From: Thamnocephalis sphaerospora
Lineage: Eukaryota; Zoopagomycota; Zoopagomycetes; Zoopagales; Sigmoideomycetaceae
Direction of reading: 5' to 3'
Assembly (NCBI GenBank): GCA_003614735.1
Contig: KZ992516.1
Location: 1-36,476 of the forward strand
Length of the DNA stretch: 36,476 nt
Shown here one piece after another: positions 1,598-33,736 of the stretch. The stretch's first letter is position 1; each line of letters opens with the position of its first letter. The notes beneath the pieces are model-generated. The model was not told where the DNA came from. It did no database searches and was given only the letters and a program-made list of their open reading frames with translations. Made by a program: the position numbers and the translations under genes.

Positions 1598-4500
1598 CTA
1601 GTGGCGCAACACGGCGGCATTTGTGTAGATCGCCATCAGCGAGGTGACCAGCCAGACGGCAGCATGCGGATGTTGGCGGCTCAGCTGGGCATAGGCGTCT
1701 GCTGACAGACGCCAAACGGTGGCGTCCGACTCGGCGACCAGATGCAAGCGTCGCAGCACGCCTGTAATCATGCCGCTGCTGCCGATGAGCGCGCCGGGCA
1801 AAATCGTCTCAACTACCACCGAAGTGGTTGCCGACTCGGACTCTTCTCCAGCAAGTGAGGTAGTCGGCGCCGCAGCTTGTGTAACAGTGTCATAGTTGCG
1901 CTGGTAAGCAGCACCCATGTGCTCTTCGTCGTCGTCGTCGTCGTCGTTGTCTTCTTCGCCATCGTGGCCCTTGACGTCGGCAAGTAGCACTAGAATGCCG
2001 CGTTCCAAGAGGTACATGGCATCTGACGCATCGCCGGCACGCCAAAGTCTTTGGCCGCGGTTGACAAAGACGCGCGTGAACGCGGCGGACACTTCCATTA
2101 GCGCGCTTGCTTCAAACGCAACGCCATCACTGGGGACGGCGCTTCCTCGTCTGGCAGTTGCGCCCACTCCCAAAGGCGCAGGTGCATCCGCTGGGTTCGG
2201 CTGGTCTGCAGCACCTGCAGTGTTTCGAGAAAAGTCGCGCGCTAGCGCCAGATGCAATAGGCTTTGCACCGACTGTACAGCGTTGCGTGGCTTCTGTTCC
2301 ACCACGGCGGCAGCCATGTCGTCTAGCTCCAGATGGCGCGCTGCTTGTGCAATCATCTCCGTGCGTGGTGTCATCAAGCCTGGTTGAAACATGTCGATGG
2401 CGTGATCGACATCAGGCTCGATAGACCTTGGCACCGTAATGGGAGAGGCAAACTGGCTCACACTAGGCCGGCGCTGGTGATCCAGCACGCAAGATAGCTC
2501 GTCTGCATGGTCATAATAGCACTTGAGCAGCTGGTTCTCGCACCATTCTACCGCTTGTCGTGCTGTGCGTGCATTCTGTATGTAGACGTCTAGCGTTGTG
2601 CCACCCCACACTCCCACCGATTGCAGCGCATGACCCGTTTCCGAGTTGGCCGCCACGCCAGCAATTACCAGACACACATCGTGTGCGGAGAGTGCGCGCT
2701 TCACACGCACCAGCGCTTCGGCTGCACTGAAATCCATGCCAGTTACCAGGGAAAAATCCATAATGATGAAACGCACAATCGGCCCAGCGCTGCTAGGCGT
2801 AAACTGGCTGGCTGCAGCGGCGGCGGCGGCGGCAGCGCGAAGTGGCCGGTATTCACTGAATGCTGTAGCCGACACTTGGCCAGACACAATATTTTCCACC
2901 AACTCCTCCAGCGTGTTGACGGTGCCGAAAAATAGAAAACCTTGCAGCTCAAGCAGATGAATCTGCTGGCCAAGGGCATCCAGGTACTGTCGCTGGCGTG
3001 CCGGACGTCGTACAGCACTGCGGGCACCACCCAGGCCACCGGTAAGCCAGCGTCTCACCGCGCGCCGGCGGCTGTAGATGACGACAAAAAAGACGCACGC
3101 CAAAAGTGCGCCCACCAGCACGCCCTCGATGAAGCCGAGAATCGCCATGGATAAAATAATAGCAACGATGGTGGCATACTCTAGTGGATGCACACGACCC
3201 CACGGATGATACACCGCCTCTTTCATCAGCTCCAGGCCCAGGTGAAAGATAAGACTGGCTACTGCTGCCACCGGAACATAGGCAATCATCCCCGGGCCAA
3301 CAAAAAAGGCCATGAGCGTACAGATGGCTAGAGCAACGCCGGCAACACGGTTGTTGCCGCCGCAACGTATAAAAAGCACGCTATTTGAGTAGACCAAATA
3401 GTCTGCAGCACGACAGGTAAAGTCAGCCTGGCCCATTGCCAAAAGGGTGGCTAGTGAAAGCCAGGCATTTACGTACTTTGTACAGAGCCAAGCAGTCCAG
3501 AAATAATGTTTGAGATGCCATGCGCCTGTAGCTCATGGCTTAAATCAACGCCATCCTGTGCGGTGGTGACTGAGAGTGCAGGCACGTTGATGGGCACGTG
3601 CAGAATCGCTACATGAAACAGTATGGTCGCGTTAGTCGCTGCCTGTAGGCGCACCGTGTGTTGGTCGAGCACTCACAAAAGAATGTCAGCGCTAGGATGG
3701 CAGGAATCGTCTTGGGCAGCACGGTCCAGTCGGTACTAGCAAAGTCTACAGCCCACACAGGTCAAACGGTGCTGCGCCGCTGTGCTTGCAGACGCTTGCT
3801 CACCAAAGCGCCGGTACACCTCGTAAAAGGGCCGCATGGGACTCGGCAGCCGAAACAGCCATCCGTGATCGCGCAGCTCATCCAGGCTAAACCCAAAGAT
3901 GCCTGCAATGATGTAGAACAACAGCGGTACGCCCAGCAGAAATCCGGGCACCGTTAGCGGATGGTTGGTGCGGTGCAGCAAGATCTGCAGAATGATGGCT
4001 AATGCTAGACCGGCAGTCCAAAGAGGCAGCGCCCGACTGCCAAGCAGTTCGCCCCAGTGGCCATGTTCCGGCTTGACGCCCGAAGCCACCTCGATCGCCG
4101 TCAACACCAGAAACCAGCCGACACCGCCAATACAGCCGACCAGAATATGCCGTGGAAAGAAGCCGATCAGTGAACCAAGCTGTTTGCATATTGCCGTCAG
4201 CACTCGCTGCAACTAAAACGCAGTAATCGCCAGTGACCACACCTTGAAATAGCCAAGAAGAAGAAAGACGATGCCTGTGATAATGGCACTTGCAGCATAG
4301 GCAACCATCGTCGTCGATGTCACCGTGTGTGGATTCTGCGGCCCCACTTCTTCCAGCACTTTAGACGCTCTAAATGTAGGCGGCTTAGTTAGTCAACGAG
4401 CAGCAGCAATAGCAGGACAGTAAACCAGTAGGCTTGTGTCAGACTTACATAGTATGCAGGAATGGCGCAACTATTGTGCGTATTTCGCCATGAGTATCTA

Positions 4501-9743: not shown

Positions 9744-10653
9744 ATGGTGGTCACATTTGCAGTCGTTTGTTCGAGCAACAACAATCGTAGTATGGAGGCG
9801 CACTGTGTGCTGAGGTGGATAGACGTGGCGATTGCTGGTGGTCGTGGTGAGCCGCTGTTAACAAGCGGACGGGTCGCTTGTCAGAGACAATGGCTTTCAG
9901 GTCAATTCGTTTGGCACTGGCAACATGGTACGTCTGCCAGGCACAGCTCAGGATCGCCCAAACAACTACAAGTTTGGCACGCCCTATGAGCAAATGTACA
10001 CGGAGCTCAAGTCGCAGGACGAAAACTAGTGGGTGCCCGTGGTCCAGCGCGCCAGCTGAGAACGCACCGCTTACCACCGCCGTGTAAAGCTATGGTCAGC
10101 GCGGCATTCTTAAAATGCTTGATCGCAATCGGCGGATCAAACTAGCTCCGGAGCGGTTTCAGGAGAGCAAAAAACACTTTGATGTGGTGATCAGCTGTGA
10201 GGAACGCGTATTTGATGCAATCTGCGAAGGTAGGTTGGCACTGAGCGAGACGGAGGCGCACGATAGACAGGATATGCTGACCACAGCGGCAAACGATTGG
10301 CGACTATGGATCGTGCAGAGCTGATGATGCGTGGAGGCGAACACAATCGGCCGGTGCACATCGTCAACGTAGAAGTGAGTGATGCACGGTGGGCAGTAGC
10401 GCCACTGCGCCACTAACGGATCTGGCAGATTCGCGATAACCACGAGGACGCTGCAGTCGGTGGGCAACAAATTCTGGATCTGGCCAATATGGTGTGTGTC
10501 GGTCAGAGTCGCATGTGGACGGCAAATTTGTTTACACTGGCGCCTGCGTAGATTGTCGCGGCCGATGACATGGACGAGAGCATGCAGGATATTCTAGAAA
10601 AGTTTCAGCAAAAGTATGGCGATATTCTGTTGCACTCGGTGTCTTTTTATTAG
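9744..10653 (+). CDS. SSU72: RNA polymerase II CTD phosphatase Ssu72
   Basis: Removes phosphate from Ser5/Ser7 of the Pol II C-terminal domain and works with the cleavage/polyadenylation factor in the nucleus. Exons 9744-9814, 9885-10028, 10090-10229, 10319-10374, 10429-10491 and 10552-10653 join in frame to 191 aa, close to the usual 194. The CX5R catalytic motif CSSNNNRS begins at Cys9, with Arg15. Further family marks are SFGTGNMVRLPG, NNYKFGTPYEQMY, ILKMLDRNRRIK, the CEERVFD segment, RPVHIVNVEIRDNHEDA and the terminal LLHSVSFY. Introns are 54-89 nt. The stop is 122 bp from the stop of the convergent APH gene. Confidence 0.96.
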
Positions 10654-10775
10654 GCGTTTGCACAATCGATCAACCGATGCATTTAATATAAGCATTTGCC
10701 GTGCACTTTCATCGGCGATGGCATGGTGGCTGGCGATATAACCGACACACCAGCAAAACTGCAGACGGCACAAGA

Positions 10776-12239
10776 CTAGAGCTTGCTGCTGACGTCCGTC
10801 AGCTCGCCGGCATCGACAATACGCAGGCCAAACTGCGCCACTGGGCGGAATAGCTTGGCATATTCGGTGGCCTGGGCCGAGCTGGCCTGACCCTTGGCGA
10901 CGCGAGCAGCAATGCCTTGTGTAATGACTGAGAGCTGCGCAAGTAAAGGCTGTGTTTAACCGTCTGTCACGCCGGGAGCTACTCGTTCTGAATGAACTTA
11001 CCCGGAAGAAAGAAAACGCCACGGAAAACATCCAGTTGCGAATGGGGTACGGCTGGGCAGTCAGCTCGCAGTAGTGCTTGATCAGCTCGTCGGCGGAGGG
11101 AACGCCTTCGGGGCGCTGGTTGCCCTCCAAGCCAGCGGGCATCATCGGCACGCCCTTGATGGATGCGTAATACGGCTGTAGCAGGTTGGCCAAGTCGGAG
11201 AGCGGATGGCCAATGGTGGAGAGCTCCCAGTCGAGGATGGCAATGACCCGCGGTTCGGTCGGATGGAAGACGACGTTGTCGACCTTGAAGTCGCCGTGCA
11301 CAATGGTGGTGCGGTCCGCAACGGCGTTGCGCGAAAACCAGGCAAGCATTTCATCTAGGCGCGGGATCGGACCAACAGCCTTACCGGTGGCGCTGTCCAC
11401 GACCGCCGCCTGTGCGGCCGATACACGCTGCAAAGAGCGGATCTGCCGTGCATAAAAGTCTGAAGGGCGGCCATAGTCGGCAAGACCTATTGCACGATAA
11501 TCGGCCAAGTGGAGTTTGGCGAGTGTTTCGACAACAGAAAGCCAGCTAACATGACGCAGGAGCACAGTTTAGCCGCTAGATCAACCGCACTGTCGTCATG
11601 CTGGCGTGTACGTTACCATGCGCGACGCTCCTCTGGTGCAAGCGTGTTGAACCGCACATCCGAAAAGATGCGTCCCTTCACAAACTCCATCACCTGCGAT
11701 AGATGCCGGTGGACGGTGAGCATACGACGTATATGGGGCAAAGTTGCTCCAGCAACTTACATAAAAGGGCGTGCCCAGCACGGATGTATCCTCGCACAGG
11801 TGGAATACCCGCGGCACTGGTACATCCGTGTGCCGGCCGAGCGCATCCAAAACACGAAACTCGCGCTCGACAGCATGCGCTGTGTTGGAGAGCAGCTGAC
11901 CAGGCGGCTTCTTGCGGATCACATAGCGTGCGCCGCTGAAGGCACAGACGCGTAAGTAGCCGGCCATCTATCACTGCTCAGCGTAGCGGCTTACCCAGCT
12001 TCCTGAACAAGGAATGTCGGGTTGCTCTGGCCGAGACTAAACTGGCGTATCTCAATAGGCGTCGTAAAGCCGGAGATGTGCTGTGCAAGGTAGTTGCCCA
12101 GTGCAACTGCATCCACTTCGTGACTATTGCGATAACACTTCACGTTAGCTAGCGGTCGGATATACAGGATAGTTGTCGCCGTCACTTGCCCTTGGCGCAC
12201 AGAGGTGGTGGACTGGCCGGAGATTTGCTGCTTGGTCAT
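10776..12239 (-). CDS. APH-fold kinase-like protein, ACAD10/ACAD11 N-terminal-domain type
   Basis: Exons 12239-11995, 11935-11761, 11693-11617, 11545-11002 and 10949-10776; about 404 aa, or 382 aa if the 66-nt GC-AG segment 12189-12124 is also removed. Seen: [12 protein letters not shown], the nucleotide-binding [36 protein letters not shown], the catalytic [13 protein letters not shown] with [20 protein letters not shown] (Brenner HxDxxxxN and metal Asp), and the C-terminal [17 protein letters not shown]. In animals this domain is fused in front of an acyl-CoA dehydrogenase; here it stands alone, as in many fungi. Family knowledge points to phosphorylation of small hydroxy-acid substrates in lipid catabolism; the substrate here is inference. 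No clear targeting peptide is visible. Confidence 0.88.
12124..12189 (-). other. Optional GC-AG intron in the APH gene
   Basis: The first exon holds AAGG|GCAAGT ... AATAG| (66 nt, no stop, multiple of three). Removing it joins ...RQG to [12 protein letters not shown], the usual spacing of this family. Keeping it adds 22 residues without breaking the frame, so both isoforms are possible. Confidence 0.5.
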
Positions 12240-12499: not shown

Positions 12500-14132
12500 A
12501 TGTCCTACGCCAACGCCGCTGCCACCGCGCCCGCCAATATGGCCACCTGCTCCAGAGCCGAGTATCTGGTGGTAGACACGGGTCCTCTCCTCAAGGGCGC
12601 CAGCCTGACGAGCCTGGCCACAAAGCTGTTTACGGTGCCCGAGGTGGTGGCTGAAGTGCGCGACCAAAAATCGCGTGCCATCCTAGACACGCTCGAGCTG
12701 ACTGTGCGCACACCAAGCGAGGAGGCTATGCAAGCGAGTAAGTAGCTGCTGCCGCTGTACTACCGTTAGACTTTTGCACACTGACCGTATTCCGTATGGT
12801 AGTCATTCGTTTTTCCAAGCTGACTGGTGATTTTGCGTCGCTGTCGCTGCCGGATCTTCGTGTGCTTGCGCTGGCATATATGCTGGAGAAGGAGCGCAAT
12901 GGCGTAGCTCACCTGAAGGTGCGCCCGGATAAGGTCGCCTCAACGGCAAAGGGCAAAGCGCCGGTGTTGTATGTTGGCGGCCGGCCAGTGGCGGAGCAAA
13001 CATTGTCCTCGGCCATAGCAAATGAGGAAGAGCGTGCAGCTGAGGCGGAGAGCGAGGTGACCGCGGTTACTGAAAAGCTGGATGCTGCAACGCTGGATGA
13101 GGAAGCACCGGCGACCGATGCGGCGGCAGAACAGGCAGATGAGAAGAGCACCGCACAGGAAACGGTTCACGAGGAGCAGGCGGAGGGGAGTGACGGCGAT
13201 AGCAACGATGACAAGACGACTGCTGTAGCCAAGGAGGGGGAGGAGGAGGAGGAAGAAGAAGAATTGTCAGACTCGGATGACGACGACTGGATTACGCCAG
13301 AGAATGTAAACGCACACAAGATGCGTGATTATGGCTATGAAGCCGACTCGCGCAGTCTGGAAAACAAACAGGTGGACGTGGCCTGCCTGACTACGGATTT
13401 CGCAATGCAGGTGGGTGGACATGCGAACACGTTGGATGCAGATCACAATGGACGCCATGCTTATTATCTACGATCTGCCTTTGAAACTCTAGAATGTGCT
13501 GCTGCAGATGGGTCTTAACTTGATTTCTGTGGACGGCGTGCTCATCAAGCGCGTCAAGACCTGGGTGTTGCGCTGCCACGCCTGCTTCAAGTAGGTGCAA
13601 GTTCCGTAACAGGTTACGGTAGTATAGATTGGTTGCTAACCGTAGCGAGTGGCTATCCTTTGCAGAATCACGACCGACATGGAGCGCCAGTTCTGTCCGA
13701 CCTGCGGCAACAACACGCTGACGCGAGTTTCCGCCAGTACCGATGAAAACGGCAATCTTTGCGTGTTTTTGAAGCGAAACTTTCAGCACAATGTTCGTGG
13801 TACCCGGGTAAGCATGCTGCGTTTGTTGGCAGACCAGTGGTGGGAATAGGCTAACGCGATGGCTACTCTGGGGATAATAGTACTCCATTCCAAAATACAA
13901 GGGCGGCAAGCACGGCAACGACATGATTCTGCGTGAAGATGAGCGTGCCTATCAAGTGGCAGTACACCGCAACCGGCGAAAGGCCAAGCAGGATGTATTC
14001 GATCCGGACTATATCCCTGCTTTGATGCAGGGTGACAGCGGTCGCATGGCAAAAAACTCGATGCCTACGATTGGATATGGCCGGCGGAACCCGAATGCGT
14101 CGCGTCGTGGTGGCCGGAGCAAGCGCCGATAG
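12500..14132 (+). CDS. NOB1: NOB1, PIN-domain endonuclease for 18S rRNA 3'-end maturation
   Basis: Cuts 20S/18S-E pre-rRNA at site D in late pre-40S particles. Exons 12500-12737, 12803-13410, 13493-13590, 13666-13807 and 13881-14132; 445 aa, near the yeast length (459). The PIN domain starts with VVDTGPLLKG, putting the first metal-binding Asp at about residue 26, and includes EVVAEVRD. A long acidic linker follows, with a Glu run and SDSDDDDWITPENV, a segment typical of Nob1. Then come DFAMQNVLLQMGLNL and a zinc ribbon CHAC...CPTCG with Cys at about 310, 313, 325 and 328. The C-terminus has PKYKGGKHGNDMILREDE and a basic tail ending RRGGRSKRR. Divergent from the APH gene across 260 bp, so a shared promoter is likely. 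Confidence 0.96.
13233..13262. repeat. GAG/GAA purine run (poly-Glu codons)
   Basis: Purine-rich codon run giving eight to nine Glu in the acidic linker of NOB1. Confidence 0.8.
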
Positions 14133-26790: not shown

Positions 26791-29700
26791 ATGGTTCCCT
26801 GTGTGCCCAAGCGTACTGGTGTGCGACGATAGACTGCCTCAAAGGCTTTATAGCTGCCGCTGCTGCTTTCCTTTGGCGCCGCCTTTGTTACCCTTCCTTT
26901 GCTGTAGTCGCATCTCGCAGAATTTGCTCGTTTCGTGGCTTGGTCATTGCAATACGGTGAGTACGCCTGAAGATGCCATGGTGCTAGCTTTGAGCGCGTT
27001 TGCACTGTTGTTTACCAGCAAGCATCGTACACCCTCTCTAGATATGATCGGTGTCGCCGAAGGCATCCAAGTTGCCGAGCAGGCGGTTGCGCTGGGAAAG
27101 TTTGTCTGGGACAAGACACGCACCACGCTAGACCTGACGCTGGCAAATAGCCATTCCAAAATCAAGCTGACGCGCTATGTGCGCTTCGTCTACGACGGCC
27201 GATGCACCGTTCAGCCCGAAGTTACCGTAAAGCACGGCGAGAATACCTCTGCCGGATTCAGGGCTAGAACAATGGGATCACGCATTAAAGGCGCCTTGCT
27301 GTACCAAATCTGCCACGCCGACGGCCGCACTCCGGTAGCAAAAGAGCTCTACCTGCTGGTGGCCTGGAGAATAAATCTGGGCAATAACTCGTTTATGCTG
27401 CTTGATCTAGTGGAAAAACACAAGGCGATCGCCTGGACTAACAAGCGCCTCGAGGATCTCTACCATAACCGCATTCAAAAGCGGTTTGAAAAGACCAACG
27501 CTGCGCTTATGCGTACATGGTCTCTGGACGACGGAACGTACTTTACGGTCAGCGCTTCTATGAACAACACACGCTTTGGCTCCATGACCGTCAGGGTTGA
27601 ATCAGCCGATGCCAGCCAAAAAGACACGCAACAACCCTACACTGTTCGAGCAGAAAAGTGCGTGTGGGCGTGTGCGACGTTGATGCGACCACTGCGCTAA
27701 CCCGCCATGATACCACTCAACAGATTCGAAGCAATTCATTGGGACGATGAGATGGGTAGGTCCACGTAGAATAGAAGAACCAGTACCATAATATGTACTA
27801 ATCGCTGCGGATACCATCGTGCTACCCTGCAGACGAAGAACAAGGCGTTCATGCAAAATCCAAAAAGGCAGCCTTGGGTGGAAGTAGTGTGGTCATTGTT
27901 GTACATAACGACTGCGAAGATATTACACTTTGCAACGGAGAACTAGGCATGTTTGACGGCAAGCGATCATCAGAAATACCGCAAGACATTGTTCCAGAGA
28001 TCAATGCGAAAATCAGCTTAAAGTCGTCCACTGTGTTCCGCGGGCGCACGCGAGGCTGTTTGGTGTACGAGATGGTCAACCATAATACCGGCATGCCAGT
28101 CGTCTGGGGTTACCGGACTCACATTGCCATTGATGTGTCGGTCGTGCCGCACGATGTGCAAGAGCGTAAGGTAGCCATCAAAATACTTGCCACCAAGGAC
28201 TCGGCATTTCCAGCTGTCAATGACCACACCATCGAAGGCGCCCACAAAGAAGTTCTTTATCACTTCATGTACACCTACGGCCGGCCCTCCGAATGGTTTC
28301 TGGATCAGCTAAACTTGCGTTTGGACGTGTCATTCAACCGCGAACCGCATGCAAAGCTGCACGTCAGGCTTATATCGGTGAAAGGACGTCCAAATGAGGG
28401 ACGACCACTGTTTTTCCAAGGTGGCGATTTTAGGTAGGCCGTAATTTCCCACCGGCGTGCGGACGGTTGCTAATGATGATAGTGCAGTATTCCTTCGCGC
28501 CATGTTAGCGACAAAATTGCCGCGTACATATCAGACCCCCAAAAGTACAGCAATCACCGTCTTCGGCTTGTAGAGAATAGCATGAGCATGTCCAGCAGAA
28601 AGGATAACCCACTTACCTTGAAATTACTTCACTCAGCACGCGGTTCATCTCCGGAGATGACTGTGCTCGTGGGCGACAAAGACGGCAGCCTGTTTGAGCG
28701 GGAATATTTCCTATACACTCAGCCGCATCTAGAGGATGAGAAGGCGCGCGACGTCCAGCTGTATGCAATTAGGCCAAGCCGGCGGTCTCGACATGCTAGC
28801 CTTGGATGTGTGCTGGCACTTTCGCAGATGAAGAATCCGGACAAGCCTGGTGCGTATATCTACACCACGGCTGTAGTGTACATGCCCATGCAAGATGGGG
28901 AGGGCGAAAAGACGGTAGCGCTTGTAGAACACTATCTTGGCCATCTCAAAGGACGCGACAATCGGTTTGGCGAGGCGCAGCTGATTGATCGGGAAATCCA
29001 GCTTCCGGGAGGACGAGACGCGCATCTCGCCGTGTATCCGTCGGTCAAGCCGCCCTTTCTCCTTACAGTTGCATTGACGGATAAGTTTGATTTGACGGTA
29101 AGTCGCATGTTGTCATTTTCCAGCATGCACGCGCTAAAATCTGATATGCCATCATGCCAGAAATTGTACCGACCATCCGCTTACGCTGGCAAGTATCTGC
29201 GGCGTGCGATAGCATAGTTCTACAAAAGCATCAAGTTAACCTGTGCACTTGCAGAATTCGCTCGCCATGCACCACGCCCATTCTACATTCGCATTGCCAT
29301 CCGCAACGAATACCAGGATCTTCCCTTGAAGCTAACCAATTTTGTCGCTAATGGCACTCCTGATACAAGCATAGCTGCTCAGGAGGCGATTCCTGGCAAG
29401 GATGCCACGATTACCTTTAAGCTTCCGCCTCAGGATCGCCAGCATGCAATTATGCTACATTATCGGTGTCCCAGCCAGAATACCTCTGGTATCGACATTT
29501 GTATTCACCTTTCTCTCCTCGATGCCAGAGACAGCGCAGATCTTAAACAGACGACGACCGTCAGCTACGTTGGCGCAAATGCCGATGCAACACGACCCAA
29601 GAACGCAACCCTGGAGACAATGTATTACTACGAAAGAGCCACAAATACTTTTATGGGCCAAGACGAAGTGGTGCAGCCCACGGCGTTGCCTACAAATATT

Positions 29701-29919
29701 CCGGAGCGCTATGCTGCGCTTCGCCATGCCGTGAGCAGTGGCAGACCCTCAGAGTTTGACGTGGTCACTTGCTTTGCCGCAGACCAAAAGCAGGTAGGTA
29801 GAACAGTCAGCCGCCTGAGCTTTACATGTGCTGACACACTTGCTGCACAGACCGAGGCCGCTGTTATGCGTCCCATTGTGGGCGCCAACGATGATGCTGC
29901 TGTCAACTTGAAGCAGTGA
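26791..29919 (+). CDS. Protein with four tandem actinoporin-like beta-sandwich modules (pore-former fold)
   Basis: Exons after an uncertain first one: 26921-26956, 27042-27657, 27724-27755, 27833-28433, 28488-29097, 29161-29188, 29255-29919. All phases agree, so this is one gene of about 880 aa, not four. The first exon is 26791-26818 or 26718-26745; both are 28 nt and in phase. Each module (about 200 aa; residues about 22-226, 238-438, 439-641, 652-871) has paired strands, a conserved polar loop, a Gly-hydrophobic-Tyr strand, a variable middle and a closing strand. A motif acidic-x-(L/M)-Y-(H/Y) recurs in modules 1, 2 and 4. Module 1 is preceded by an amphipathic helix and ends with MNNTRFGSM-type strands, the layout of actinoporin-like cytolysins. 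No signal peptide is seen. Lytic activity is unproven; lectin or membrane binding is an alternative. The family call is moderate, the single-gene call strong. Confidence 0.6.
29189..29254 (+). other. GC-AG intron joining modules 3 and 4 of the actinoporin-like gene
   Basis: GCTG|GCAAGT ... CTTGCAG|AA (66 nt). It is preceded by a 28-nt exon (29161-29188). Only the GC donor puts module 4 in frame. Confidence 0.75.

Positions 29920-30210: not shown

Positions 30211-33736
<3,526 letters not shown>

Follow-up and report, generated by a model that had tools for sequence, protein, structure and literature searches.

Tandem actinoporin-fold modules in an expanded gene family of Thamnocephalis sphaerospora

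Positions 1 to 36,476 of contig KZ992516.1 of Thamnocephalis sphaerospora (assembly GCA_003614735.1, forward strand; this whole stretch is referred to as the window) raise the question of whether a single gene, THASP1DRAFT_28808, links several actinoporin-fold modules in one polypeptide and, if so, what such a protein might do. Actinoporins are single-domain, self-assembling pore formers. In the window, four consecutive domain-sized exons (modules M1 to M4) are joined by one spliced reading frame, and the order M1-M2-M3-M4 is found in seven genes of this genome, i.e., the window gene (C93) and its paralogues C189, C435, C71, C125, C362, and C27; in C362 and C27, the alignment of M3 or M4 is partial. 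We conclude that this is a real, conserved, and expanded family of tandem actinoporin-fold proteins that is not described in the literature searched, where no multi-module actinoporins, no report joining actinoporins with Zoopagomycota, and none under the locus-tag prefix were met. The features of the window gene are listed below; P0001 is its deposited protein and P0002 a second T. sphaerospora protein.

27044..29919, + strand: whole coding region, best model (7 exons, 835 amino acids (aa); spliced translation, every junction in phase)
27044..27657, + strand: exon 1, N-terminal helix and module 1 (M1, predicted actinoporin fold; AlphaFold2 (AF2) model, Foldseek, VIA)
27724..27755, + strand: 32-nt mini-exon, M1-M2 linker (comparable in-frame mini-exons in paralogues)
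27833..28433, + strand: exon 3, module 2 (M2; profile alignment to first modules)
28488..29097, + strand: exon 4, module 3 (M3), divergent (third place kept in seven genes)
29161..29203, + strand: 43-nt mini-exon, M3-M4 linker (spliced frame; its 'LY' residues recur in the C435 model and P0002)
29255..29793, + strand: exon 6, module 4 (M4; hhalign to the M1/M2-type profile)
29851..29919, + strand: exon 7, short C-terminal tail and stop (spliced frame; end identical to that of P0001)
26978..27043, + strand: alternative upstream start of the deposited model, 22 aa with a hydrophobic beginning (P0001)

The six introns are all GT-AG, keep phase, measure 51–77 nt, and were all recovered in a branch-point-filtered intron scan. 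A first-pass annotation made from the sequence had placed one gene at 26791–29919, with seven phase-keeping joins and a product of about 880 aa. The single gene and the preserved phase stand, with six joins and 835 aa in place of the larger figures, and the 5′ part (26791–27043) is not confirmed: the proposed exon 26791–26820 was rejected because its intron (26821–26920) is no branch-point-filtered candidate, no filtered intron fits, and five of the six four-module paralogues have a methionine at or near the 27044 start. The gene finder preferred the donor at 27670, which ties with 27658; the latter was chosen because the resulting linker agrees with the paralogues and P0001. At the 3′ end, the gene finder overran the true stop with two invented introns, and the end at 29919 was taken from the open frame and P0001. 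Since the gene-finder models of C435, C71, C125, C362, and C27 were likewise imperfect, and for a further locus, C397, another gene was returned, paralogues were compared exon by exon.

P0001 (855 aa) shows 98% identity to the product in a protein search and departs from the best model at two places, the N terminus, which it extends by 22 residues to a start at 26978, and the M3-M4 junction, where its linker has 13 residues vs. 15 in the best model. A methionine lies at the best model's start, or a few residues from it, in C189, C435, C71, C125, and C362, i.e., in five of the other six genes with four modules, and in C189 just three codons separate an upstream stop from this methionine. The exceptions are C27, with a methionine directly before the sandwich, and C397, whose frame holds no methionine before its module. 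The paralogues' open frames showed no leader like that of P0001. Judged by these sequence comparisons and the recurring 'LY' residues of the linker, the paralogues favor the best model's start and M3-M4 linker over the deposited versions, and the M3-M4 junction (window 29098–29254) seems to be misplaced in the deposited gene model. The predicted lack of a signal peptide is supported on the best-supported start. Between M1 and M2, a scan recovered a mini-exon of 26–32 nt with phases 2/1 in five of seven genes, ranking first or tied in four and second in C125; it gave no solution for C435 and C362, whose linker is nevertheless similar in their gene-finder models and in P0002.

The fold assignment is carried by M1. 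Its AF2 model reached a predicted local distance difference test score (pLDDT) of 91.8 and a predicted template modeling score (pTM) of 0.85, and the first 18 Foldseek matches in the PDB were actinoporins, with Nakanori, an aegerolysin, and fruit-body lectins of fungi ranking lower; VIA likewise matched M1 to actinoporins. The model contains a beta-sandwich flanked by two helices, which places it in the actinoporin superfamily at the level of fold. Like FraC, EqtII, sticholysin, coral Fav, and moss bryoporin (7pud), M1 is predicted to have one helix ahead of the sandwich and another later in the domain. M1 is therefore a confident predicted actinoporin fold, and it shares 33–46% identity with the first modules of the six paralogues compared. 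Iterated M1 and M2 profiles each recover the other, although such profiles absorb what they find; in an independent profile test, eight first and seven second modules aligned over 171 columns with a P of 6.5e-7, and none of 100 column shuffles scored as high, which shows the homology of M2 to M1 at the level of sequence profiles. M4 matched a mixed M1/M2-type profile in hhalign over 81 columns (P 5e-4, score 29.1 vs. at most 17.8 in 99 shuffles, 0/99) and M1 alone with a P of 0.0019 (0/99 shuffles as high), with no significant match to M2 alone (10/99 shuffles as high); by these alignments, M4 is probably related to M1.

We do not consider the family to be actinoporins proper, and it should not be filed as such, because the profile, the aromatic loop, and the single-domain size of that family are all lacking. 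Identity of M1 to actinoporins is about 10–17%. The Pfam profile PF06369 gave no hit in the four module exons at E-values as high as 10 and was absent among the 18 families listed for 38 module rows; a whole-genome scan found no match in T. sphaerospora, but none in control genomes either. Instead of a single domain of ~20 kDa, the chain holds several modules. In loop L3, located by model strands and alignment without superposition and read from 18 of the 38 module rows, the seven four-module genes have zero or one aromatic residue in each of their 14 first and second modules, i.e., the aromatic cluster of actinoporins is missing; helix 2 has at least one aromatic residue in 13 of these 14, with none in M1 of C27. 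Among other proteins of related fold, the fungal lipid-binding protein Nakanori (5h0q) has one domain in a 202-residue chain and shows 11% identity to M1 over 145 aligned residues, and the alignments of the fungal fruit-body lectins XCL, ABL, and SRL begin at M1 residue 25–26, leaving the N-terminal helix outside. According to PMC8778704, actinoporin-like proteins occur in glomeromycete fungi and are highly similar in sequence to known actinoporins, whereas the family described here shows no such similarity by profile search. In a search of viral structures, an uncharacterized Pandoravirus celtis protein (BFVD A0A4D6EIA8) had a predicted fold like that of M1 (E 3e-5).

How far does the family extend? 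In whole-genome searches, single window modules found paralogues at E-values down to 3e-70, and a module profile built from these loci gave 54 matches in 1585 open reading frames (ORFs), including overlapping loci and the profile's own building rows, vs. none in ORFs shuffled five times or reversed. Together with hidden Markov model (HMM) scans of the fetched loci, this amounts to at least ~18 loci in the 14.46-Mb assembly, a lower bound because the genome search scores best candidates only; at least 12 have four or more module-sized units. One more M4, on C560, sits at the end of its contig, and nine more distant loci were identified (C12, C105, C113, C112, C62, C333, C103, C198, and a second locus on C189). 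Exon hits indicate five modules in C105, five or more in C12, four in C62, at least four in C112, and seven in C113 (L017/L025), the third of which is weakly matched; C112 and C333 run off the ends of their contigs, and the C112 (L020) modules resemble C113 places 4 to 7. C397 (L014 2895–3515) holds a lone M1-type module, with none of the second type found after it and no methionine before it in the open frame; it is either a single-module member or a remnant. Protein searches returned only P0001 and P0002, both from T. sphaerospora, and were incomplete, so that absence elsewhere is not established: P0002 was found in one search and missed in another, and C189, C435, C71, and C125 were never returned. 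Pfam, PDB sequences, and phage records yielded nothing useful for the family.

In a tree of 38 modules, which leaves aside third modules and the M4 of four-module genes, modules grouped by their place in the gene and not by gene (nine changes, minimum eight, shuffled mean 22.4, 0/200 as low). For the four C112 modules, place was deduced from likeness to C113, partly by eye, which makes their grouping partly circular; with C112 excluded, places 1 and 2 (12 and 11 rows) required two changes each, and 0/500 shuffles were as low. In C113, modules 1 and 2 pair with one another, which may be an effect of long branches. As modules group by place, the M1/M2 duplication is older than the gene duplications. 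The ratio of nonsynonymous to synonymous differences per site (pN/pS) was 0.34–0.66 in all 52 exon pairs computed, many of them saturated at synonymous sites; unsaturated pairs agree (nonsynonymous and synonymous divergence, dN 0.13 and dS 0.45, for C189–C560 M4; dN 0.24 and dS 0.67 for C189–C71 M1). The family is thus under purifying selection. Given the module order, the grouping by place, this selection, and the linker mini-exon shared among paralogues, separate transcripts for the modules appear unlikely, and the single covalent polypeptide proposed for this locus is supported by the in-phase frame and the order conserved in seven genes.

The first-pass annotation had offered a pre-assembled pore, a membrane-binding scaffold, or an intracellular defense protein as possible functions. 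In actinoporins, the membrane is bound by an aromatic patch located in L3 and helix 2, and the pore is walled by an N-terminal amphipathic helix (PMC9526159). A helix is indeed modeled at residues 5–24 before the M1 sandwich; given the best-supported start, it occupies the extreme N terminus, its place in actinoporins too, and VIA aligns pore-state Fav and FraC to model residues from 1, vs. from about residue 20 for the soluble forms. A pore former could insert this helix, use M2–M4 as dock or spacer, and assemble several chains into a ring. However, model confidence is lower in the helix (block means 72–87), and its amphipathicity showed no excess over shuffles in any of the seven first modules tested (p 0.09–0.74; C397 included, C27 excluded). 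The helix is probably absent from the C27 first module (L015 51–617), to judge from the position of its methionine, though its contig begins close by. Moreover, one helix per four modules would leave a ring short of helices, and what precedes M2 resembles a flexible linker in the alignment (by eye). The few L3 aromatics, a helix no more amphipathic than shuffles and seemingly absent in C27, and this linker speak against a simple covalent pore and rather for multivalent binding by diverged modules, as we infer; the pre-assembled pore is disfavored, and we regard the pore former as unlikely. An arrangement in which four to seven actinoporin-fold subunits are concatenated into a covalently set arc or ring, with M1 giving a single membrane-inserting helix, is a more doubtful variant still, which, if true, would be a pre-ordered membrane machine unlike the self-assembling actinoporins.

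The scaffold, binding either membrane or ligand, and the intracellular defense protein both stand as candidates. In the most probable reading, which we put at an even balance, THASP1DRAFT_28808 is a member of a tandem actinoporin-fold family known so far only from this genome, whose modules form a multivalent binder. The protein would be cytosolic, or released without a leader, and its modules could jointly bind a membrane lipid or glycan, as Nakanori does with lipid and much like the fruit-body lectins, and the covalent linkage would supply avidity. Modules may have diverged in ligand, M3 and M4 most, and any pore would have to rely on the one helix that precedes M1. T. sphaerospora is an obligate mycoparasite sequenced from single cells (PMC6784888); the ligand could belong to the host fungus or to a predator, microbial or animal.

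Several points weigh against this binder. A shared fold is no indication of function, binding of lipid or glycan is putative, and the missing aromatic patch also weakens membrane binding of the known kind. The start at 26978 has a good-looking context (by eye), and its use would give the protein a short hydrophobic leader. M3 is the weakest member of the proposed array: its match to the mixed profile is not significant (19/100 shuffles as high), with 4/100 vs. M1 alone and 82/100 vs. M2 alone, and its model is poor (pLDDT 53.7), with no PDB match at E ≤ 0.001 and no convincing structural match. M3 is assigned to the family only because it is third in a co-linear array, because third modules in four other genes are profile-related (C333 and C12 additionally at 0/100 shuffles each), and because its last seven elements follow an order similar to that in M1; its membership is unproven. 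The initial description of four related, actinoporin-like modules therefore applies to M1 in fold, to M2 in homology, and probably to M4, and only putatively to M3.

The intracellular candidate takes a more specific form as a recognition or self/non-self protein, whose modules would bind a protein or modified ligand, as proposed for the lectin-fold domain of Podospora HET-B. There, a related fold lies inside a fungal intracellular protein and determines het-B recognition specificity (PMC10890737). The lack of a leader on the best-supported start and the many diverged copies within one genome speak for such a role; however, the HET-B lectin fold is fused to a HET domain, and no HET, TIR, NLR, or other Pfam domain was found in the nine family sequences scanned. 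The comparison covers a single assembly, and we consider this role improbable, on a par with the pore former. An ordinary housekeeping or structural protein, in which the beta-sandwich is kept without membrane or ligand binding, would agree with the missing aromatic cluster and the strong divergence of M3 and M4; a multi-copy, diverging family with no relative found elsewhere, in searches that were incomplete, is unlike housekeeping genes, making this the least probable explanation.

With at least 12 of its ~18 loci carrying four or more module-sized units, the family offers a natural experiment on a fold with covalently linked subunits, and a lead to a large uncharacterized protein family in a mycoparasite; the genome paper reports no orthologous genes signaling mycoparasitism across all its taxa (PMC6784888). 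Regarding other genes in the window, a frame at 1601–3532 (−) combines sulfate permease, STAS, and cyclic-nucleotide-binding domains, the frame at 10597–11568 (−) encodes a phosphotransferase (APH) domain (E 1.4e-22), and that at 12742–13515 (+) the end of a PIN_6 ribonuclease domain. Downstream of THASP1DRAFT_28808, on the other strand, 32418–33161 (−) holds the first domain of a phosphoglucomutase/phosphomannomutase gene.
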